A DNA stretch of 35,752 bases from a virus. Numbering within the stretch: position 1 is the stretch's first letter; each line of letters begins with the position of its first letter. This document shows, one piece after another, positions 7,363 to 34,208 of this stretch. Position numbers and translations under genes: made by a program. The notes under the pieces were generated by a model that did no database searches, was not told where the DNA came from, and saw only the letters and a program-made list of their open reading frames with translations. Location of the stretch: the IMG/VR virus record IMGVR_UViG_3300030406_002351, positions 1-35,752 of that record; one strand, given 5' to 3'.

Positions 7363-9453
7363 CTACATACTTTGAGTATTAACTTCACCCATTTGAGCTG
7401 GGTTTGTACCAATTCTACCAATCTGAGCATTTTGCATTTGCTGCATAGCAAACAAATACTGTCCTTGATACTTTTCCAGTCTATTACGGAATGCTTCATC
7501 TTCTTCTAGTTTTTCTTGTATATCTGGCTGAGAAGTGTATTGTTGTATAATTTGTAATGCAATTTGACCACCATTTGGACGAGCTGGCATTTCAATGCCT
7601 GCAAAGATTTTTGTCAAGTCATCCATAACCTGTTTTACTATTTGCTCTTGAGCTTCTTCGGATTGCTGAAGAACAGCATCAGCAAGAACAGGGTCAATGC
7701 TACTAGCAGCAACTTCAAGCAATTTATCAATATTAATTCTTCCGTTTCTGTCTAGTTGAGTCAATGAAACTAATTGATTTAGTTTATTTTCTTGAGCCTC
7801 TGGGTCAGAGTTAAGAACATCGTAATTAATTAAGATGTCAAAGTTTTCATCAGGATCGCCCTTCTCAAACATTTGAGGATCTGGAACACCAGTAACTCGG
7901 AAGAATATACTATCAGGTCCAAACCTTTGGAAGCACCGATAAGCTAACTTTAGAACATCGGCACAGTGAGCTAAAAACTTGTCTACTAAAAACTGCCTAC
8001 GCATTTGACTCATTGGATCTTGGTAATCTAAACCAACCATTGCATTAGCTTGTCGCTCCATAGTTTGTTCCATCTCTATAGAACCTTGATTAAAGTTTGG
8101 AGTAGGACCAAATTCAAACTCTCCTTTTCTGCGATACGGTATGTACCTGCCTGGCCCCCAGTCTTTGGGTGCATTACCTACAGGGTGCATAATAGGAGGA
8201 AGAGTTGCTAAACTATTGCGATCAATACGAGAGTCGCGTTCTACCTTTATTTGCTGTTGAATGCCACGTAACACATCAGGGATAGTTTGTGTATCATATA
8301 GGCGTTTGCTGTCCTCTGAAAGCTTTGTAACCACTACTGGGTAGTCCTCATACCCGTTCATAAGATTAAACTTAGCATAGCTTGGTACACCTAATCCTGC
8401 GTTGCCATCAAAGTCTTTGTGTATTACAGTTTCATAAATTGCTTCAGCTCCATCCTCTGGATCAACTAAGCGTTGATAACAATGAACCACTTCAATTAGT
8501 TCATCAGCTTCATAAGCAGAGTCTGTTAAACTTATAGAACGACGACCCTCTTGTTCTCTTTCAATAGAATCAATGTTTACCCCACGATAGTTTTCTATCA
8601 TGTAATCAACAAAATTTTCGTCCCAGCCATCAGTAATAACTTTGTTCTCTAGTTCTTGAGCAGTATAGTATGTACGCCAAAAACAGTATGGTGATCTTTG
8701 AGGATCAGTAACATAAGCTGGGAACATAAAGTCTCCATCGGGTGCTAGTGTCTTAACATCGGGAACATCAATTTGACGACGCACTACGGGAAGCTCCGCG
8801 ACTCCAGTCTTACGTATCTCTTTGAGTGCTCTTTTGGCTTTGCGATCAGTTACGCCATCAAAAGTTGTTTTAATAAGTTCAACAATTTGATCATCATCAT
8901 TTCCTTCTAGAATAATAGTAGCAAGCTCTGGGGATATTTGAGCAATTTGATTTATGTCTAGTTTTTGTAAAAAACGTCTGTCTTCTCTGTGCCATCCAAC
9001 ATAGGTTATCAACAGCCCACGCTCAAGCATATAGTTAGCCCCTAGCTCCATTTCTTGCATAAAGCGAGGAATATAGCCACTTGACACCATCCATTTAAGA
9101 AAATTAGAAACTACTTTAGAACGAGCAATATCTCCCATCTCTACTGGGAAAGCTCTTACGTTAGCTCTCTTCATTGAGGAAATAAACAAGGACACAAGTT
9201 TAGTAACACGCTCATCAATAACGTGAGACTCCATATCGGCTGCACCCTCCCAAGGGAAAGCGTCAGACCCATGCTTACGCAGGTCACGGCTTTTGCCAGG
9301 CCACCAATTACGTCTATCGTCGTAGCTACTACGACATAGATCAAAATAAGTATCTAGCTCGTTTACGGTTTGATTATACGCCTGACGCAGAGCTTTAACA
9401 CCTGGTTCTTTGCCGACGTAAGTTAGTTCCTCAGAAATTGTATCGCTTAACAT
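7363..9453 (-). CDS. Portal protein
   Basis: The 696-aa product forms the dodecameric ring through which DNA enters and leaves the head. It has the long, mostly helical, charged character and size of podovirus-type portals. FPWEGAADMESHVIDERVTKL (split by the usual core) at about 64-84 is a very typical portal segment. Further on are QIDVPDVKTLAPDGDFMFPA, a conserved PFFP-like CFWRTYYTA stretch, and a Gln-rich C-terminal barrel-like helix (QYTSQPDIQEKLEEDEAFR). It follows terminase with only the 132-aa gene between and precedes lysozyme and scaffold, the normal head-module order. The last 90 or so bases overlap the long alternative reading of the lysozyme ORF, which is not used. Confidence 0.85.
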   Translation of the reverse strand: MLSDTISEELTYVGKEPGVKALRQAYNQTVNELDTYFDLCRSSYDDRRNWWPGKSRDLRKHGSDAFPWEGAADMESHVIDERVTKLVSLFISSMKRANVRAFPVEMGDIARSKVVSNFLKWMVSSGYIPRFMQEMELGANYMLERGLLITYVGWHREDRRFLQKLDINQIAQISPELATIILEGNDDDQIVELIKTTFDGVTDRKAKRALKEIRKTGVAELPVVRRQIDVPDVKTLAPDGDFMFPAYVTDPQRSPYCFWRTYYTAQELENKVITDGWDENFVDYMIENYRGVNIDSIEREQEGRRSISLTDSAYEADELIEVVHCYQRLVDPEDGAEAIYETVIHKDFDGNAGLGVPSYAKFNLMNGYEDYPVVVTKLSEDSKRLYDTQTIPDVLRGIQQQIKVERDSRIDRNSLATLPPIMHPVGNAPKDWGPGRYIPYRRKGEFEFGPTPNFNQGSIEMEQTMERQANAMVGLDYQDPMSQMRRQFLVDKFLAHCADVLKLAYRCFQRFGPDSIFFRVTGVPDPQMFEKGDPDENFDILINYDVLNSDPEAQENKLNQLVSLTQLDRNGRINIDKLLEVAASSIDPVLADAVLQQSEEAQEQIVKQVMDDLTKIFAGIEMPARPNGGQIALQIIQQYTSQPDIQEKLEEDEAFRNRLEKYQGQYLFAMQQMQNAQIGRIGTNPAQMGEVNTQSM

Positions 9454-9479: not shown

Positions 9480-9878
9480 TCAAATCTTTTTTATCCAATG
9501 ATAGGTTTTGACATTATTTTCGTTGCGTTCTTCAAAATAAATCATTTTTCCAATTAACTTACCCTGCATCCTTTTTGTAATCTTTACGTTAACTTTACAA
9601 AAATGTTCTCGGTGATGCACGGCAACATACATGGGATTTGGACACTCTCTCAAAACCTTTCCTCTATATATTAATTTATTTGGCTCTTCTTCCTCAACAG
9701 TTACATTAGGCATAGGTATGACATCATCTAATATCTCCTGCCCCTTCTCGTTTATCCAAGTTAAATGTCTTGCTCCTGTAATCATGTCTTCTTCTAGATG
9801 TTTAAATGCTAGATCCATTGCTTCTTCAAAAGGAATGTCACACTCCTTTGCTATTTGGTATAATCTTTTCTTTGCCAT
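9480..9878 (-). CDS. Unknown 132-aa protein with IF2_N-like helix-turn-helix start
   Basis: The N-terminus (RLYQIAKECDIPFEEAMDLA, 5-24) resembles the small helical domain at the start of translation factor IF-2 and some DNA-binding proteins. The rest is a beta-rich basic domain with Cys and His (LRECPNPMYVAVHHREHFCK) and a Lys-rich end. It sits between terminase large subunit and portal, its start overlapping the terminase stop. A nucleic-acid-binding accessory factor of packaging is conceivable; the identity is not known. Confidence 0.6.
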   Translation of the reverse strand: MAKKRLYQIAKECDIPFEEAMDLAFKHLEEDMITGARHLTWINEKGQEILDDVIPMPNVTVEEEEPNKLIYRGKVLRECPNPMYVAVHHREHFCKVNVKITKRMQGKLIGKMIYFEERNENNVKTYHWIKKI

Positions 9879-11509
9879 TAGTATCCTCCCTCGGACTTTC
9901 TTGTTGTGTTCATAGAGGTGTCAGAAACATAATCTGGACCATACCCATCATTCGCCATTCGCAAATAACGTAGAAGGTCAATCCAGTCCTTTAATGGTTC
10001 ATCTACTTTTCCTCTATGCCCCCAGTTAATTAAACTTTGTATTAAATTGCCACAGGATGAGTGTATTTTTAAGATTGGTCTATTTGCATCATCTATCTCT
10101 GCATTTGGATTGTATAACATCCACTCATCTAACCCAGACAGTCCTGTCTCAATATCTGCTCCGCTAGAGGGTATAAAGAACATTTCCTTAGCAGCAAAGC
10201 TTTCAAATAAATCTGTATTGTCTTCATTCTCTCTAGCAAAGAAACGAGAGTCACCTATACGCTCAAATACCTCTACGCCTAGTTCTCTCTCTATCTCCTC
10301 AAACTCATCTATATATGCCTGGATGTCGTATCCCAGCTTCTTAGCTGCTGGACCAAATCTCCACTTTGGATCGCCTGATAATGCCCACTCACCATAGCTG
10401 TCTCTGTCTGGCCACTCACGGAGTATGGTAACATACCCTTGTTTGTCAACAGCAGCCCATATAGCCACATAGTTCCTAGCTCCAGCAGGGTCAACTATTT
10501 GATACACTGTATGTGTTTCTTTGTTTATAGCAGGTAGTTCATCGGTTACGTGTACTTTTGTACTAAAGTATGGAAACAAAGTAGTCATTGACTTAACAGG
10601 CACTCCATAGGCACGTGTTAGTATTTCTTCTCTAGGTCTACCTTGTAGGTCTTTAGCTATACGATTATAGCCACCAAATGGATTCTCATCTGTATGTAAA
10701 TACACAATGCCAGCATCTCTGTTTACACTATACTGCTTTACAGGCACAGGCTCATCAATTAGCTTTGCATGCTTAGTCTCTAAGATCTCAGCATCTCTTA
10801 GATAGTCAGCAATCAGTTCTGTGTACCCATCAATCGGTGTAAAACCTGTAACTAACTTGGAGTCCCTGGTAGCTAGACGAAAACGCTGTGTGTTGATAAG
10901 CGTAGAGTCACCTAGATACTCGTCGTTGCCAATACCTACATTCTCTGGATGATTGCCTAGACTAGGAAACCCAAACTCAAAACCTTCTAGTATTGTGTGG
11001 TTATTACTAAACTGTGTGTATGTCTTAAAATCTACGCGGGTTCTAGTATCTGGAAATATAAAAGACTGACCAGTAAAACCATTCTGCATAGAATAGTTTA
11101 TGTATCCCTCTATGCCCTTAGTCTTGCGTTTGAACTCCTTGGGCATAAATTCCCATATGGCAGCCTGCTGAACCTTTACAGAAGTATCAGCGTTCTGTGA
11201 AAACAATACTACGTGTCCATCTGTGTGCTTAGTAATAGACTCCATAAATATTTTAGCCATACCTGTAGTCTTAGCACCACGATTGCCACCCAAAACTAAT
11301 ACTTCGTTGTACTCAGACAAAGCCCACCTAATTCTGTCCCAGCTTACTAAGTTTACTCCGTGACGCAGAGGATCGTCTATAGTTAGCTTTATAGCGTCCT
11401 CACGGGCTTTCCATACATCATACACAGCTTGTGGTCCCTTTGTGTCTAAGAGAGCCTTGAGCCTGCCTCTATCGGGCGTAGGTATGGTTGGATGCTTAGT
11501 CCACTGCAT
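9878..11509 (-). CDS. terL: Terminase large subunit
   Basis: The 543-aa packaging ATPase and nuclease that pumps DNA into the prohead through the portal. Walker A is GGNRGAKT (74-81); a probable Walker B acidic pair is NDEY (about 195-198). The C-terminal RNase H-like nuclease shows three spaced acids: D340 (VYQIVDPAG), D421 (RIGDSRFF) and D512 (DWIDLLRY). The start overlaps the end of the small-terminase gene by 14 bases, which suggests coupling. It is encoded near the start of the late operon. The Walker A differs slightly from GGNRAGKT-like forms, with Ala before the Lys. Confidence 0.9.
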   Translation of the reverse strand: MQWTKHPTIPTPDRGRLKALLDTKGPQAVYDVWKAREDAIKLTIDDPLRHGVNLVSWDRIRWALSEYNEVLVLGGNRGAKTTGMAKIFMESITKHTDGHVVLFSQNADTSVKVQQAAIWEFMPKEFKRKTKGIEGYINYSMQNGFTGQSFIFPDTRTRVDFKTYTQFSNNHTILEGFEFGFPSLGNHPENVGIGNDEYLGDSTLINTQRFRLATRDSKLVTGFTPIDGYTELIADYLRDAEILETKHAKLIDEPVPVKQYSVNRDAGIVYLHTDENPFGGYNRIAKDLQGRPREEILTRAYGVPVKSMTTLFPYFSTKVHVTDELPAINKETHTVYQIVDPAGARNYVAIWAAVDKQGYVTILREWPDRDSYGEWALSGDPKWRFGPAAKKLGYDIQAYIDEFEEIERELGVEVFERIGDSRFFARENEDNTDLFESFAAKEMFFIPSSGADIETGLSGLDEWMLYNPNAEIDDANRPILKIHSSCGNLIQSLINWGHRGKVDEPLKDWIDLLRYLRMANDGYGPDYVSDTSMNTTRKSEGGY

Positions 11510-12423: not shown

Positions 12424-12490
12424 TGTATATTGCACTTCAGGATATGTCAAGCCCTAGACCCTAAAGTGCAAAATGCACCTCATAAGTATA
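12424..12490 (-). promoter_or_regulatory. Candidate late promoter with GTGCA operator
   Basis: On the minus strand a TATACT -10 element (12490-12485) is followed by a GTGCA-TTT-TGCAC inverted repeat at 12478-12466, which would cover the transcription start. A third half site (TGCAC on plus, 12431-12435) lies 30 bases further on. The -35 upstream of TATACT is poor. A second candidate, TTGACA (12450-12445) with TATACA (12429-12424), has a short 15-bp spacer. The repeated GTGCA sites look like an operator for a dimeric regulator. Confidence 0.5.
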
Positions 12491-12740
12491 CTGTAAAAAA
12501 CATAGCCCAATTAGATTGTATTTTTTAGAACGCAGTTTATGTATATATATACAACGACAAAAAATATTTTGCGACCCCCACCCCCCTAGTGTCTTTTTTA
12601 CGAAAAGTAATTCGTGTATTTTTTTTCGTAATTACTAGTTACTATAATAATACTAATAATAAATGTAAGAAGTTTACTTCGTGTATTTATTTTCTGGCAT
12701 TTCTTTTCGTGTAAATAGTTTTTTTGTAGAAAGTGGGGAT

Positions 12741-12774
12741 ACATTCTGTAGACACATTCTGTAGATACATTTTA
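12741..12774. repeat. Iteron-like tandem 13-bp repeats
   Basis: Two copies of ACATTCTGTAGAy (12741-12753 and 12754-12766) are followed by a partial third (ACATTTTA). The core TGTAGA also occurs just upstream at 12725-12730. Repeats spaced by 13 bp in AT-rich DNA beside a winged-helix initiator-like gene suit a replication-origin or regulator-binding role. Confidence 0.6.
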
Positions 12775-12835
12775 TTGATATATTTAATAGAGTAAATAAG
12801 CGGTAAAAAAAAATTAATATTTTTAAAAAAAACTA

Positions 12836-12865
12836 TTGACAAGCTCTGGCCAGATTGTTTTTACT
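12836..12865 (+). promoter_or_regulatory. Early promoter with palindromic operator in the spacer
   Basis: A perfect TTGACA (12836-12841) is followed after 18 bp by TTTACT (12860-12865). The perfect 10-bp palindrome TCTGGCCAGA (12845-12854) lies inside the spacer, exactly where a repressor would block RNA polymerase. It would drive the tiny early genes that start 50 bases downstream. Confidence 0.6.
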
Positions 12866-12918
12866 GCTATTTATATTAAGTAATAAAGCTTAATATGAAC
12901 ATCAAAATAATACACAAT

Positions 12919-16152: not shown

Positions 16153-16337
16153 CTTGCTACAGTATATCCTATACTAGAAAAGATATGCCCAACAAATGCG
16201 AGGCTATAAAACACGCTCATACAGAAGAAGAAGCATTAAAACATTTAGCCACTGGCACCAAAAAGAGAGGGTATAAACTAAAGCGTAGCGGAGTATCTAT
16301 CGAGCTACTGGCTATCAAGGAAGTGACTAAGGCTTGA
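16149..16337 (+). CDS. Small EEALKHL-type basic protein, 62 aa
   Basis: Starts CYSISYTRKDMPNKCEAIKH, then AHTEEEALKHLATGTKKRGY and a basic beta-like end. It shares its A-H-T-E-E-E-A-L pattern with the proteins at 15088 and 15325. Start and previous stop overlap (ATGA). It closes the first block of the early arm, and its last codons carry the -35 region of the next promoter. Confidence 0.62.
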   Translation: MTCYSISYTRKDMPNKCEAIKHAHTEEEALKHLATGTKKRGYKLKRSGVSIELLAIKEVTKA

Positions 16338-16352
16338 CAAACAATTTATAAT
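16323..16352 (+). promoter_or_regulatory. Promoter GTGACT-N18-TATAAT
   Basis: A perfect TATAAT (16347-16352) lies 18 bp after GTGACT (16323-16328), inside the end of the 62-aa gene. TTGACA at 16334-16339 is also present, but its only -10 partner is poor (TATCAG, 16-bp spacer). Transcription should begin near 16359, less than 50 bases before an intrinsic terminator. Confidence 0.55.
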
Positions 16353-16405
16353 TACTATCAGTTTTTCATATATCCGTGTTGAGACGGTGTGTTTGGTTAT
16401 TTAAG

Positions 16406-16437
16406 CTCCTCCTACTCAACTAGGGGGAGTTTTTTTT
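16406..16437 (+). terminator. Intrinsic terminator after a short RNA
   Basis: CTCCTCCTA (16406-16414), loop CTCAAC, TAGGGGGAG (16421-16429) with one T-G pair, then eight T (16430-16437). It ends the first early block and would also end a transcript of about 80 nt from the promoter just upstream. It may be an attenuator in front of the replication genes. Confidence 0.88.
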
Positions 16438-16439
16438 AC

Positions 16440-16750
16440 AGTATATCGGAGCAAGCGGCCTCACAAGTTAGCCCAAGTCTGAGTTGGTGGTTGCATAGTT
16501 TGACAGAAACCCGACTATGCGTAAAGGGTTTGCAGTAATGCAAGAACGGCCAAGGTTAGCGTAATACAGGACTTACCACACGCGACGATCCAAGGCACTA
16601 TCGAGGGCGGGGACACTCATAATTTGAGGCAAAGCAAGAGCATAGGTTCGACCAGTAATGGGGAACTTATGCTCAAACAGGGAGCATCTCTAATTTGAAT
16701 GAGGCAGAAAAGCATTGACCTTACAATCATTTAATCCGATCATACTATTA
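16440..16750 (+). ncRNA. Candidate structured non-coding RNA
   Basis: About 310 bases without a plausible ORF, less AT-rich than the other gaps and full of inverted repeats. Stem A: GCATAGT (16493-16499) with ACTATGC (16514-16520). Stem B: TTGCA-GTAA-TGCAA (16530-16543). Stem C: GAGCATAGGTTC (16638-16649) with GAACTTATGCTC (16663-16674), 12 pairs including one G-U. The loops of B and C share AGTAATG. Two related segments, CATAATTTGAGGCA (16618-16631) and CTAATTTGAATGAGGCA (16690-16706), flank stem C. AAGTTAGC and AAGGTTAGC also recur. It does not match tRNA, tmRNA or a group I intron core that I can recognise. Confidence 0.5.
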
Positions 16751-16751
16751 T

Positions 16752-17507
16752 ATGAATAAAAAAACTGATATAAAAACTGCTCTACTGGACATTGAAATAA
16801 TAATGTACAGACACGCTGCTAAAGCAGAAGCTGAAGGGACAAGCCTACGTACATTAAAATCAATGTGTGTACAAGCCATAGATAACTGTGTGCTCGGGAG
16901 CAAGGCATCTGAGTTTTATCTCATGGTATCGGGTCGTAATAACTTTCGTAAAACACTCTATCCCAATTATAAAAGTAATCGTGGAGACAAGCCACAGCTA
17001 TACAGACCCTTGAGCAAGGCCATCAAAGAAATGTATGGGAACAGGTGGTATCAGCACGATCAGTTAGAAGCTGATGATTTACTGGGTATAATATCCACCA
17101 ATGGAAAGATTGATAAGCCAATTGTATGTAGCATAGATAAAGATCTGTTAAGTGTACCTGGGTGGCATTACAATTGGGACAAGGACGACTGGCCTACCTA
17201 TGTGAGCCAAGAAGAAGCTGACCACAACTGGCTTATGCAACTACTCATGGGAGATAGTACCGATTGCATAGAGGGCATGAAGGGTATCGGCAAAGTAAAA
17301 GCAGAGAAACTTATTGAGAAGTATGCAGACCCTACACTAAGTGTTCCAGAGCAAGCTAAAAATATTTATGAAAAAGAAAATTATTCTCTTGACCAGTATT
17401 ATAATTGTTTAAACACTGTGACTATCTGGAGGAAACCTTTACCAAAAGAACTCCTAGAAAATAACCTAATCACAGAAATAGTAAAAACCATACCAACACT
17501 AGAATAA
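16752..17507 (+). CDS. 5'-3' exonuclease (FEN / T5-T7 gp6 type)
   Basis: A 251-aa metal-dependent structure-specific nuclease that would remove RNA primers or degrade host DNA. Metal-binding acids are in place: D13 (LLDIE), E106, D108 and D109 (EADDL), D129 and D131 (SIDKD), and D168 and D171 (MGDSTD). A helix-3-turn-helix follows (GMKGIGKVKAEKLIEKY, 175-191). The C-terminus is short. It lies directly behind the candidate RNA and ahead of the helicase genes as the first replication enzyme. TTGACC-N17-GATCAT at 16715-16743 could start a nearly leaderless mRNA for it. Confidence 0.85.
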   Translation: MNKKTDIKTALLDIEIIMYRHAAKAEAEGTSLRTLKSMCVQAIDNCVLGSKASEFYLMVSGRNNFRKTLYPNYKSNRGDKPQLYRPLSKAIKEMYGNRWYQHDQLEADDLLGIISTNGKIDKPIVCSIDKDLLSVPGWHYNWDKDDWPTYVSQEEADHNWLMQLLMGDSTDCIEGMKGIGKVKAEKLIEKYADPTLSVPEQAKNIYEKENYSLDQYYNCLNTVTIWRKPLPKELLENNLITEIVKTIPTLE

Positions 17508-23323: not shown

Positions 23324-26300
23324 TTAGATAATACCCCTAATTCTTAGGGCTTGAATTACAACGTCTGAGATCAATCCCCTACGCCTAAAATCGTTTATCA
23401 TACTAGGATTTTTGGACAGATAGTCAACCTTCTCATCTGTATCCATGTTGCGTATAATTAAGTCTTTTTCGCTAAACCCCTTTTTTGCACTCTTCTGCTC
23501 TCTGAGCCACATAGCCTTTAGCCTCTTGCCAACAACAGGGTCGGATCGAAGATACCTATTTATGTTAACGAGCTTCTCTTGCATTGTATCTCCTTGTTCG
23601 TTATATATGTCCGATGTAGATTTTTTCAAAGCCCTTGGCAAGTCAGATGGAGAGTTGTCTAATATTTCTAATATTCTTTTGGACGAAACTTTTGCGTCTT
23701 TAAATATTTTTATACGGTCGTTTTCGTCATACCCCAACTCAATTAAGCTTTGGTTATTCTTGGACAAAGCAGCGAATGCGTCTGAGTAAATCTTGTTGGC
23801 TTTCTCGTACTCTTGATTTAACTCTGCCTCTGATGGTTCTCCAAATTTTAATAAGCTGTTGTAGTCTGACTTAGCCTCATTGGATAAAGTGTTGGTGTTT
23901 CTAATTGTAAACATTGCAGCCTTACTTACATCAAATGGATTAATTCGTGCTCCCAGTTGCCTTGCTCCTACCTCCTTTAGCGTCAAATCACCTTTGCCCA
24001 GGCGAGCCTTCTTTAACTTCTTTAGTTCCCTGCTGAACCCAGGCTCAAATGATTCCTTCAAAAAGAACCCCAAGCGTTCTTTGGCTTGATCTAACTCGTT
24101 TATCTGTTTTGATATTTTTTCCCCACGCTCATCTAAGTTCATTATTGATTGGTACGCTGATTGAAATATAAAAGAACCTTCTCCTACTAGTTCCTCTGAT
24201 AGTAGCCCAATAAGTGATTGTTCGCTGTCTCCGTTTAAACCCGCTTTTAGTGCTGACAAAGCAAGTGCGTGCGGCACTACATAACTAGGGTTAGCAGTCC
24301 ATCCCGTGCGCCCCCCATCGTCTAACTTAACCAACAAGTCTCTGTTCTTATCGTAAGATGCGTAGACAACGTCACGTAGGGCTTCTTCTTTTTTATCGTC
24401 TACCCCTGAAGCAGCTTTAACTCCCTCAATAGCAGCGTAGGTTCCTCCGTACACCCCAAGCAAAGAAGCAAGTCTCTTGGTTCCTTCAACTCTCATTTTA
24501 GCTACATTGGCTGCTCCAAGTTCTGCAAACTCTTCTCCAAAGTTACCTGCTAACATACGAGCAATAATCTTACCTTGGTTGTATTGGTTCCTGGCAAACT
24601 CGGCAGTAAACGATGCGAACTGTGGCATAACGCCCCAACGAGAAAGAGTACGTACCACATTGCTCAACTTGTCGTAATTTTGGTAAGTATCATTAATCAT
24701 CATTGCTGCCTGCTTCTTAATAACCTCCTCACTAGCGTTTGGAAACATCTTGCGTATGGCTTGTTGATTAGCCTTCCAACCTACGTACCTACCAAGAGTA
24801 TCGGGTACTTGGTATGCTTTACCAACTGGATCTAGTCCTTTCTGTAACCACTTGGAGAACGGGCCTGCATTTAATGTTGACCTAAGGTCTGACTCTAAGA
24901 CATTGGCATTCTTGATACCATACTTGGACATCTCTTCTATTTCGTCTAGAAGTGCTTTACGAGCCTTTGGGGTATTTTCTAACCCCTCCAACGCACGAGA
25001 AACTAAAGGAACATCAGCTAATGCTAGACGTAGTCCACGACTCCCCTCTTTGATTGAGAAAGGGTTAATCCCCATACCTAGTAAGTTGGCAGAATTACCA
25101 TATACCTGTACAGGATAAGCTACAGTATTAAATAACACCTTTGCCCCCTTGGACAAACCAACACCAGCTCCATATAAATCTCGTAGCCCGTTAAGGAATA
25201 TATTGTCCATCTTCTCCGAGCCATTACTAACATACAATTCGTTTAGTGCTACCTGAACCTGTGGGTATGCGTATAAGCCAGAACCCTCTGGGCCTGATCC
25301 TCTTAATACAAGCTCGACCATTTCATCATCTACCTTAGTGGTAGAAGCTACCCCAGCGTCAACTAACTCTTTTCCAAGAATAAGATTAGTTCTTTCTCTT
25401 GCCACTGATTTAGCAATACCAGTTAGTGTTCCCCTCATGCGTTCTACGGGATCTTTTATTTCTCCTAACCAAGCTTTTTCCGCTTCACCAGGGGTCTTTC
25501 TTTTCTTAAATACAGAATCTATTCCATTTCCTAAAAATCTTCTTGGGTCTTCTTTTTTGGTAGAGGCAAAGCTGTCTTCTAGTCTCTTCAGGTGTTTATT
25601 TGCATTGGCTGATGCTGTATCAAAATCTTGACCCCTTTTCATGTTAGCCTCAGTCAATTCATTTATAGCCGCTTGTTTTTGTTTTGCTGAGGGCTTGTAG
25701 TTGGGGTCTAGAAAAGCCTTATACTCTCTCCTAGCGTAACGCTGGCTTGAGTTCATTGAGTCGTTTATAATATCCCTTAGTTTTTTTCTCGCTTCGTCAT
25801 CTGCGGATTTATAGGCCCCTTCATCAAGTAGTTTTATGGCCTCCTTCTGCAACGCTACCCTAGCTTCATTATACTTTTCTAAATCAGCACCAAGAACCCT
25901 AGCTACATCATCTGACATCTCGCCAGTATCTAAAAATTTATTGATAGGTGCTTCTAATGACGGATCTTTCTTTATTGCCCTTGCAACCTTAGCTCCAATC
26001 CTGCCAGCAAGCTCTTCGGCTGTTTTAATAGTTCTTGAAAAATCAATAGTAGCTTGTTGTGCTTTTTTACCTACAACCTTAGAGGGTGCAACAGAGGCTA
26101 GTATTCTCCCCATGTTACCAAGGTTTGCTTGGGGCTGTGTTAGAGCTTGTGCCGCTGCCTTGCCCCTTGCTCCATCCTTAGTTTCTTGTATGCTCCTTAG
26201 TAGTATTTCTCGCCCAAACTCTATGTCATCAGAAGCATCTTTCGGAAAGAATGATAAATCCTTGAATGTAATCTCTTCTCTAGCAACAGCATCATCTATT

Positions 26301-26938
26301 TGTTGTGGTGTCTTACCTGCAAACTTCTGTCCAATCTTAGTAGTCACACCACCGAGAGCACCACCAAATAACGCACCTGCTCCACCAAACTGAACTAGTT
26401 CTTCTGCTGTGGGCAGACGGCCTTCATCTATAACAGCCCTTGCTGTAGCGTCTGTAACGCCAAATGCAGCCCCTTTAGCAGCTTCTCTGGTTGCAACCTT
26501 ACCAAGGCTCATAGCTCCCTTTATTCCCTTACCTACGCCCCCAGGAATAGCACCGATAGCAGCAGCAGCCATAGCTCGACCTATAGACTTGTCCTCTTGT
26601 CCTTCGACATCTTGGGCAAACAAGCTACCAAAAAATGAGGCTGTTGCTCCACCTATTACAGAACCAGCTAACGCTCCAGCAGCTGTACCAGCACCAGGAA
26701 CTATAGACCCCAACGCACCACCAAGAATAGCACCAAGTGCAGAGCCACCAACGCCAGCTCCTACTTCTATGCCTACACCTTTTAGTATATCTTCAACGCT
26801 AGGTTCTTCGTCTTCTTCTTCAATAGTTTCAAATACATTTCTTTGAGAAACTATGTCGTCAAATATATCCCTCTGAGAAACTATGTCGTCAAAGACATCG
26901 CTTTGCTCAGAGTAAAGCGTGTCAAATATATCTGCCAT
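23324..26938 (-). CDS. Very large internal virion / DNA-ejection protein candidate, 1204 aa
   Basis: The longest gene in the genome, at the end of the late arm. The N-terminus has ten-residue repeats (DVFDDIVSQR, DIFDDIVSQR, and diverged flanking copies), then a long Gly/Ala-rich hydrophobic stretch with GxxxG motifs (about 48-115) able to enter membranes, then charged helical regions for the rest of the length. A segment around MINDTYQNYDKLSNVVRTLS, then VMPQFASFTAEFARNQYNQG resembles the region found in large inner core proteins of marine short-tailed phages. Such proteins leave the head at infection and carry DNA across the envelope. Tape-measure function is less likely, since no long tail module is seen. 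Confidence 0.62.
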   Translation of the reverse strand: MADIFDTLYSEQSDVFDDIVSQRDIFDDIVSQRNVFETIEEEDEEPSVEDILKGVGIEVGAGVGGSALGAILGGALGSIVPGAGTAAGALAGSVIGGATASFFGSLFAQDVEGQEDKSIGRAMAAAAIGAIPGGVGKGIKGAMSLGKVATREAAKGAAFGVTDATARAVIDEGRLPTAEELVQFGGAGALFGGALGGVTTKIGQKFAGKTPQQIDDAVAREEITFKDLSFFPKDASDDIEFGREILLRSIQETKDGARGKAAAQALTQPQANLGNMGRILASVAPSKVVGKKAQQATIDFSRTIKTAEELAGRIGAKVARAIKKDPSLEAPINKFLDTGEMSDDVARVLGADLEKYNEARVALQKEAIKLLDEGAYKSADDEARKKLRDIINDSMNSSQRYARREYKAFLDPNYKPSAKQKQAAINELTEANMKRGQDFDTASANANKHLKRLEDSFASTKKEDPRRFLGNGIDSVFKKRKTPGEAEKAWLGEIKDPVERMRGTLTGIAKSVARERTNLILGKELVDAGVASTTKVDDEMVELVLRGSGPEGSGLYAYPQVQVALNELYVSNGSEKMDNIFLNGLRDLYGAGVGLSKGAKVLFNTVAYPVQVYGNSANLLGMGINPFSIKEGSRGLRLALADVPLVSRALEGLENTPKARKALLDEIEEMSKYGIKNANVLESDLRSTLNAGPFSKWLQKGLDPVGKAYQVPDTLGRYVGWKANQQAIRKMFPNASEEVIKKQAAMMINDTYQNYDKLSNVVRTLSRWGVMPQFASFTAEFARNQYNQGKIIARMLAGNFGEEFAELGAANVAKMRVEGTKRLASLLGVYGGTYAAIEGVKAASGVDDKKEEALRDVVYASYDKNRDLLVKLDDGGRTGWTANPSYVVPHALALSALKAGLNGDSEQSLIGLLSEELVGEGSFIFQSAYQSIMNLDERGEKISKQINELDQAKERLGFFLKESFEPGFSRELKKLKKARLGKGDLTLKEVGARQLGARINPFDVSKAAMFTIRNTNTLSNEAKSDYNSLLKFGEPSEAELNQEYEKANKIYSDAFAALSKNNQSLIELGYDENDRIKIFKDAKVSSKRILEILDNSPSDLPRALKKSTSDIYNEQGDTMQEKLVNINRYLRSDPVVGKRLKAMWLREQKSAKKGFSEKDLIIRNMDTDEKVDYLSKNPSMINDFRRRGLISDVVIQALRIRGII

Positions 26939-33549: not shown

Positions 33550-33701
33550 TACTTACCAATTTTTTTCATTGCTTTCTTATGAGACTCAGTAAAAGTAGCA
33601 CCTTCTTTTATTAGCTTACGCATAAAATCCATATGCTTTTTAGTATGATGCTTAGAATGAGCTTTGAGTGCCGCTTGTTGTCTTTTACCTATCTTATCCA
33701 T
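33549..33701 (-). CDS. Lys/His-rich tiny protein, 50 aa
   Basis: Basic helical product MDKIGKRQQAALKAHSKHHT then KKHMDFMRKLIKEGATFTES, ending KKAMKKIGK. ATG overlaps the TAA of the 57-aa gene and its stop overlaps the next ATG (TAATG both times). It is too short for usual ORF cut-offs but sits perfectly in the array. Confidence 0.72.
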   Translation of the reverse strand: MDKIGKRQQAALKAHSKHHTKKHMDFMRKLIKEGATFTESHKKAMKKIGK

Positions 33702-33874
33702 TATCTGCCCTTTCGTTTACCACCCTTAGCCTTCTTAGCATAGTTAGGGTCTTTACAGTACTTAGATGCGGCTAGATTAGCATACGCACTAGGATACGTA
33801 TCAAATGTACGCCTAGCCCAAGCCTTACCTTCGGGACATATTTTACCTCCGCTTTTTGCTCTCTTTTTTGCCAT
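33701..33874 (-). CDS. Lys/Arg-rich tiny protein, 57 aa
   Basis: Contains ICPEGKAWARRTFDTYPSAY, then ANLAASKYCKDPNYAKKAKG, a pattern often seen in marine phage proteins (two Cys at fixed spacing, K/R tail). The ATG falls inside the end of the 41-aa gene, overlapping it by 32 bases in another frame. Confidence 0.72.
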   Translation of the reverse strand: MAKKRAKSGGKICPEGKAWARRTFDTYPSAYANLAASKYCKDPNYAKKAKGGKRKGR

Positions 33875-33968
33875 TTTTTACAAGTGATTTAAGAAGCTTT
33901 GCTTGACCCGCATGAGCCTTAGAAGCCTTCTCAAGCTTTCTTGCGACGCTTAGTATTTTTCTGTGCAT
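33843..33968 (-). CDS. Lys/Arg-rich tiny protein, 41 aa
   Basis: MHRKILSVARKLEKASKAHA, then GQAKLLKSLVKNGKKESKKR, R: a single amphipathic basic helix. It overlaps both neighbours in other frames (38 bases upstream, 32 bases downstream). Composition agrees with the array; with so much overlap it is the least certain member. Confidence 0.5.
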   Translation of the reverse strand: MHRKILSVARKLEKASKAHAGQAKLLKSLVKNGKKESKKRR

Positions 33969-34071
33969 TTCTACTCCTTAATACTTTGAAGTCTGCTCCA
34001 GTAATCTTGTTACGGGGTGCAGCAACTCTAGCTAGTTTCTTTTGTTTTGGACTGTATTTGCTAAATGGCAT
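33931..34071 (-). CDS. Lys/Arg-rich tiny protein, 46 aa
   Basis: MPFSKYSPKQKKLARVAAPR, then NKITGADFKVLRSRNAQKNT and a KRRKKA tail. The 'F.KYSPKQKKLA..A.PR.KIT.ADF..L' pattern is familiar from small marine phage proteins. ATG overlaps the TAA of the previous gene. Confidence 0.68.
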   Translation of the reverse strand: MPFSKYSPKQKKLARVAAPRNKITGADFKVLRSRNAQKNTKRRKKA

Positions 34072-34184
34072 TACTTCTTTCGTTTTACCATTTTCTTTTT
34101 AGCCATTCCTTTCATTCCTTTAGCTTTAGCAGCTTTAGATGGACGGCCTACTTTACTTCCGTATGTTCCTTTTCCCATTGGCAT
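34071..34184 (-). CDS. Lys-rich tiny protein, 37 aa
   Basis: MPMGKGTYGSKVGRPSKAAK, then AKGMKGMAKKKMVKRKK. First member of the array in the direction of transcription, with AAAGGATATATT before its ATG (a fair SD). Almost half of the residues are Lys or Arg, like a histone tail; the fold is probably disordered until bound. Confidence 0.68.
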   Translation of the reverse strand: MPMGKGTYGSKVGRPSKAAKAKGMKGMAKKKMVKRKK

Positions 34185-34208
34185 AATATATCCTTTTGTT
34201 TATTAGTT

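Follow-up and report, generated by a model that had tools for sequence, protein, structure and literature searches.

The window, that is, the whole stretch of DNA analysed here, comprises the 35,752 bases of the uncultivated virus record IMGVR_UViG_3300030406_002351. The largest ORF-free gap in its early plus-strand gene block (16338-16751, 414 nt), overlapped by no ORF of 60 aa or more on either strand, holds two RNAs and a promoter-like site. The first, RNA1 (16363-16437, plus strand), consists of a hairpin and a strong terminator and lies directly upstream of the second, RNA2 (16438 to ~16712, plus strand), which is ~270 nt long with a core, ACAGTATATCGG...GAATGAGGC, at 16438-16705. RNA2 is followed by a promoter-like site, TTGACC ... 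CATACT (16715-16746, plus strand), whose TTGAC is kept right after RNA2 in the relatives inspected. The site stands before a gene for a 5'-3' exonuclease (16752-17507, plus strand; phrog_107, E 1.5e-45), the first gene of the replication block, after which come genes for a DnaB-type helicase and a metallo-phosphoesterase.

An earlier note had proposed a candidate structured RNA at 16440-16751, in front of the replication genes. That interval does hold the RNA2 core, but it also takes in the promoter-like stretch (TTGACC at 16715) and misses the upstream unit at 16334-16437. The placement before replication genes holds in most relatives, whereas other genes intervene in L001, L303, L309 and L308. 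The segment had also been described as richer in G and C than the other gaps, and indeed RNA2 has 48.5% GC and the noted interval 45.5%, against 40.4% for the genome and 27.7-45.2% for the other gaps (one at 45.2%). Two further ORF-poor gaps lie elsewhere in the window: one of 444 nt and 27.7% GC (12451-12894), where early and late genes diverge, is a candidate control region, and the other spans 659 nt (33550-34208). Among the minus-strand late genes (e.g. 7363-9453, 9878-11509 and 23324-26938), ten large proteins have no Pfam match.

With the exonuclease as query, 52 contigs were retrieved, and wherever upstream DNA is present the RNA2 segment is 82-100% identical; these form clade A. The first clade B copy, a diverged RNA2 in the same place, was found in a record reached via the capsid gene, with an exonuclease 60% identical. 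A further search and a pattern scan brought clade B to 23 contigs, whose exonucleases are 58-63% identical where scored. Together, ~50 clade A and 23 clade B contigs, or ~70 phage contigs, carry RNA2 homologs at the same locus, with ~66% identity of RNA2 between the clades. A pattern scan for the AUACAGSACUUACCA core returned two already-known contigs and no third clade among the matches listed, and a phage collection searched with clade A, B, C and D sequences contained no homologs. Its only other yield was a weak match of 40 nt to Lactobacillus phages, which falls upstream of the element. In scans of genome contigs, a first pattern gave 0 matches and a second at least 116, the fetched loci resembling the element in the pattern only. 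Among 30 records of major-capsid relatives, many of them fragments, the element is absent from most by BLAST. The capsid of the window itself has a clear relative in phage C75C1 (65%).

No family of Rfam 15 is matched at the gathering threshold anywhere in the window, RNA2 included, and nothing credible appears up to E = 10 for clades A and B, the sub-threshold matches up to that value being to unrelated families only. ARAGORN finds 0 tRNA or tmRNA genes in the window. The earlier note could not place the segment among tRNA, tmRNA, group I introns, GOLLD or ROOL, and no description of the RNA2 family turned up in a small search of the literature. GOLLD, ROOL and OLE, known from bacteria and phages, are large RNAs of ornate structure (PMC12286853). 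Like these, RNA2 is large, conserved and non-coding, and GOLLD and ROOL are phage-borne too; unlike them, it is of far smaller size, matches no covariance model, Rfam's GOLLD and ROOL models included, and stands behind a terminator and before replication genes. Orphan structured phage RNAs are a known kind; the RNA2 family, itself well supported, is absent from Rfam 15.

Structure and conservation of RNA2

The RNA2 model comprises helices P1-P8, all on the plus strand. The P1 hairpin (16455-16473) shows a U-A/C-G exchange in clade B (11:7) and has two exchangeable versions in clade A, where an alternative hairpin module, GGCAGGTGGACGAACCACTGACC, takes its place in L024, L027, L032, L035, L037 and L073 between otherwise near-identical flanks. 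A possible pseudoknot joins GUGG (16487-16490) to CCAC (16576-16579); it is paired in all sequences of both clades, and being nearly invariant it is weak evidence. The P3 hairpin (16493-16520), with the conserved loop UUGACMGARA, is the best covarying helix. P4 (16528-16547) is built from GUU/AAC, a 2-nt bulge, UGCA/UGCA and a GUAA tetraloop (16535-16538). P5 (16549-16555 with 16590-16596) encloses both P6 (16559-16561 with 16581-16583) and the conserved AUACAGSACUUACCA. The P7 hairpin (16616-16628), CUCA-UAAUU-UGAG, contains the first AAUUUGA/GAGGC copy; its pairing is invariant, and AUUUGAG is kept in both clades. P8 (16638-16674) has 11-12 outer pairs, an inner CCA/UGG and a GUAA tetraloop (16655-16658). 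The second AAUUUGA...GAGGC copy (16688-16705) forms the 3' boundary of RNA2, and AUUUGA and GAGRC are kept in clade A, in clade B and, among the mosaic loci, in L292 and, with a single change, L300.

The three hairpins of the earlier note are real and correspond to P3, P4 and P8, the last folding with 12 outer and 3 inner pairs (z -7.4). Its motifs also lie where they had been placed: AGTAATG at 16534 and 16654, AATTTGA at 16621 and 16692, and GAGGCA at 16626 and 16701, and the two hairpin loops sharing AGTAATG are both GUAA tetraloops. In clade A, the P4 loop is GUAA or GCAA, varying at the N position, and the P8 loop is GUAA or GUGA, varying at the R position, the one exception being an extra A in two sequences. 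Both corresponding loops differ in clade B, so the GNRA loops are a clade A feature.

Three alignments underlie the model: one of 35 clade A sequences, one of 18 clade B sequences and one that joins both clades. Local hairpins common to both clades were placed on them by hand and the pairs then counted, the same sequences having given the structure. For the 61 pairs counted in the 18 clade B sequences, 99.6% of cells are paired, compared with 35-41% in a control with the partners slid, and two-sided changes occur at 11 pairs (26 cells), which 0 of 500 shuffles match when kinship is ignored. In clade A (35 sequences, 52 pairs), 93.8% of cells are paired, two of the three inner P8 pairs being scored as unpaired because a gap sets them one column off; two-sided changes occur at 6 pairs (31 cells), again with 0 of 500 shuffles and kinship ignored. 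Specifically, P3 is 99-100% paired and changes on both sides at 4 of its 7 pairs in clade B and at 2 pairs in clade A. Its strands are GCAUAGU/ACUAUGC and ACAUAGC/GCUAUGU in clade A, and GCUAGGU/ACCUAGC, GCACUAUC/GAUAGAGC and GCCCUGUC/GAUAGGGC in clade B. P5 is 100% paired in clade B with one C-G to U-A change (GUCCCGU/GCGGGAC to GUCUCGU/GCGAGAC). P8 carries two-sided changes in both clades, and so does P4, with G-C to A-U in 3 clade A sequences and a different, likewise covarying stem in clade B. All three stems singled out in the earlier note thus covary, at values that 0 of 500 shuffles reach, while most pairs of RNA2 are invariant, above all in clade A. That the hairpins arose by chance in ordinary intergenic DNA, for which nothing was found in favour, is refuted by these pair counts; with conservation and covariation in two clades, the probability left to this reading is practically nil.

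Additionally, G-U cells far outnumber A-C cells in clade B (111 vs 1), which implies that the element works as RNA made from the plus strand. Folded in that sense, the 312-nt segment reaches -91 kcal/mol, compared with -74.3 kcal/mol for shuffled sequences, and is better than 100 of 100 shuffles (z -3.2); the minus strand reaches a z of -1.5 only. These observations bear on whether the element might act as DNA instead, for instance as an origin of replication whose single strands form hairpins, as its location before the replication genes could suggest. Tolerance of G-U and not of A-C (111 to 1 in clade B), unusual folding on the plus strand only, and a local minimum of cumulative GC skew that lies near 14-15 kb, with skew tracking gene orientation, all speak against such a role, which we regard as very improbable.

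The mean identity of RNA2 in clade A is 93.4%, and that of codon positions 1, 2 and 3 of the exonuclease gene in the same phages is 93.5, 96.8 and 74.6%. The longest stop-free run in any frame, 57 codons, is not shared. Because identity is at the level of first codon positions and this run is not shared, the segment is constrained but not coding. The structured-RNA interpretation of the earlier note was largely right: the stems covary, the gap does not vary freely (93.4% vs 74.6% at third codon positions), and no conserved ORF was found in it, relatives differing there by indels of 1-2 nt. Two further structural candidates were set aside. The closing helix GCCUCA/UGAGGC of a whole-element minimum-energy fold was dropped from the model, being broken in L012, L014, L024 and others; a pairing between RNA1 and RNA2, UCAAUCA/UGAUUGA, holds in clade B only; and a joint RNAalifold of both clades was unhelpful, with P4, P5 and P8 misaligned. 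Taken together, comparison of the relatives shows RNA2 to be a plus-strand structured RNA of ~270 nt, with helices P1-P8, under purifying selection, and by this comparative evidence it is almost certainly a real structured RNA.

RNA1 and its complementary loops

RNA1 contains a specificity hairpin (16374-16387, plus strand), CCGT-GTTGAG-ACGG with its loop at 16378-16383, and a terminator hairpin with T-run (16403-16436, plus strand) of 12 pairs, stronger than any other terminator-like site in the early region. The two loops are complementary, GTTGAG in the specificity hairpin matching CTCAAC (16415-16420) in the terminator. Relatives carry other loop pairs, including GTAGTG/CACTAC, GTCGCG/CGCGAC, GTCAAG/CTTGAC, GTCAGAG/CTCTGAC, AGTCGCATT/AATGCGACT and AACGATA/TATCGTT. 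Across 15 loop types, cognate loops form on average 6.1 bp vs 3.0 when swapped, a difference reached in 0 of 5000 permutations, and the weakest type (L052/L073) still forms 4 bp. Comparison across these types shows the RNA1 hairpin loop to be complementary to its own terminator loop, at the level of predicted pairing, and the arrangement looks like a sequence-specific on/off switch.

Some loop types are common to clades A and B, and in L028 the promoter segment of one RNA1 type is joined to the loops of another. Because of these shared types and this chimera, the RNA1 unit seems to be exchanged between phage lineages as a cassette. RNA1 equivalents also occur in L290, L297, L302 and L309, and L295 has RNA1 without RNA2. 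The promoter-like site of the RNA1-RNA2 unit, TTGACA-N7-TATAAT (16334-16352, plus strand), can also be read as TTGACA-N16-TATCAG (16356) or GTGACT-N18-TATAAT (from a scan, 10/12), and TTGAC-N8-TAYAAT is kept across clade A lineages. In L002-type relatives, RNA1 is missing and TTGACA-N7-TATAAT lies directly before RNA2, which points to transcription of RNA2 from that promoter-like site.

The CI RNA of phage P4, the c4 RNA of P1/P7 and plasmid copy-control RNAs are small structured RNAs before replication genes, complementary to a terminator region. RNA1 is likewise complementary to a terminator region and comes in several specificities (15 loop types, 0 of 5000 permutations). Unlike in those systems, its partners lie within one short transcript, and no sequence relation to them is shown. 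P4 CI and c4 RNAs act in trans to bring about termination and immunity; for RNA1, action in trans would be putative.

Mosaic loci and possible functions

Several loci carry other RNAs in the place of RNA2 or of part of it. In L290 (2057-2383) and L299 (376-702), a different structured-looking RNA of ~330 nt lies between RNA1 and the TTGAC site, and in L300 (673-1060) a 5' part related to that RNA is joined to the 3' end of a clade B RNA2. L292 and L293 have a third kind of 5' part, followed by a GIY-YIG ORF; the 3' half of P8 comes next, and after it the AUUUGA motif in its second copy. In L292 this ORF (946-1503) has 185 codons and is of the T5orf172/MUG113 kind (PF10544, PF13455); read by eye, GACGTAGAGTTTAACC before it can pair with GGGTGAAACTATGTC after it as the two P8 strands. 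None of the variant-locus RNAs has a meaningful Rfam match up to E = 10. With these locus variants and the exchangeable P1 versions, the ends of RNA2 (ACAGT... and AUUUGA..GAGRC) are its most stable parts and the middle is mosaic. At L292:2265-2383, and also near L381 and L395, there is a tRNA-like gene (Rfam tRNA, 45 bits) with a ~46-nt insertion apparently in the anticodon loop; ARAGORN recovers the L395 copy only, without a clear anticodon.

Group I introns can carry GIY-YIG endonuclease genes, and the L292 ORF inside an RNA helix resembles that arrangement. RNA2 could be imagined as a ribozyme, or as what is left of a mobile intron that spliced itself: the GIY-YIG ORF of L292/L293 sits, by eye, between potential P8 strands in an architecture typical of introns, and in L290, L299 and L300 the locus holds RNAs of other types. 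Unlike in such introns, however, no group I or group II model of Rfam matches the clade A, clade B, C-type or D-type RNA even at E = 10, RNA2 is flanked by a terminator and a promoter-like site, and neither exons nor an interrupted gene were recognised; we consider this origin improbable. A suspected resemblance between the C-type RNA and group II introns finds no support in Rfam.

A more serious alternative is that RNA2 acts in cis as the leader of the replication operon, either by antitermination, with the nascent RNA modifying RNA polymerase as the put sites of phage HK022 do, or through processing, stability or translation of whichever gene comes first. The put antitermination RNAs of phage HK022 are structured, belong to an early phage transcript and consist of two short hairpins, and RNA2 is likewise a structured RNA in an early phage region. 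A leader role is conceivable because RNA2 has no terminator of its own, none lying between it and the next gene, and because the exonuclease follows within 50-100 nt at most loci. In line with such a role, a methyltransferase-like gene inserted in L001 (1500-2194) between an intact RNA2 and the exonuclease sits exactly at the start codon position, behind the same 48-nt leader. L303 likewise has a DNA methyltransferase-like gene between RNA2 and the exonuclease, upstream of 2501; the identity of both methyltransferases comes from reading the sequence. On the other hand, the next gene differs in L001, L303, L309, L294 and L308, the conserved TTGACC promoter-like site intervenes, and in the downstream operon no strong intrinsic terminators were found that it would have to overcome. 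With ~270 nt and two GNRA loops, RNA2 is also far larger than put, about 4x longer, and unlike put it has a promoter-like site after it. We hold a leader function to be possible but rather doubtful. Because that promoter-like site is conserved after RNA2 and the exonuclease is not always the next gene, RNA2 is probably not a dedicated switch for the exonuclease mRNA.

The reading we tentatively favour, without giving it full confidence, is that RNA1 is a regulated attenuator followed by RNA2 as a free-standing structured RNA. RNA1 and RNA2 would be transcribed from one promoter, and RNA1 would usually end transcription, leaving an RNA of 75-120 nt. Pairing between the RNA1 loops, in cis or by earlier RNA1 in trans, may then set read-through into RNA2 and the replication block. 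RNA2 would then work early in infection as a folded RNA in its own right, most likely by serving as a scaffold or by binding protein. A bolder version, which we think unlikely, is a two-part RNA control device before phage replication genes. In it, the exchangeable RNA1 loop specificities would provide every phage with an attenuation or superinfection-immunity type of its own, and read-through would make RNA2; this would be an RNA machine of a new class in phages, with middle domains replaceable by other structured RNAs or by the gene of a homing endonuclease.

The RNA2 family adds a structured phage RNA beyond Rfam 15, with diverged relatives enough for testing its structure and function. RNA1, with its many natural loop types, is a simple case in which sequence-specific control of phage replication genes by RNA can be tested, and from it an immunity or attenuation system based on RNA could come to light in uncultivated phages.
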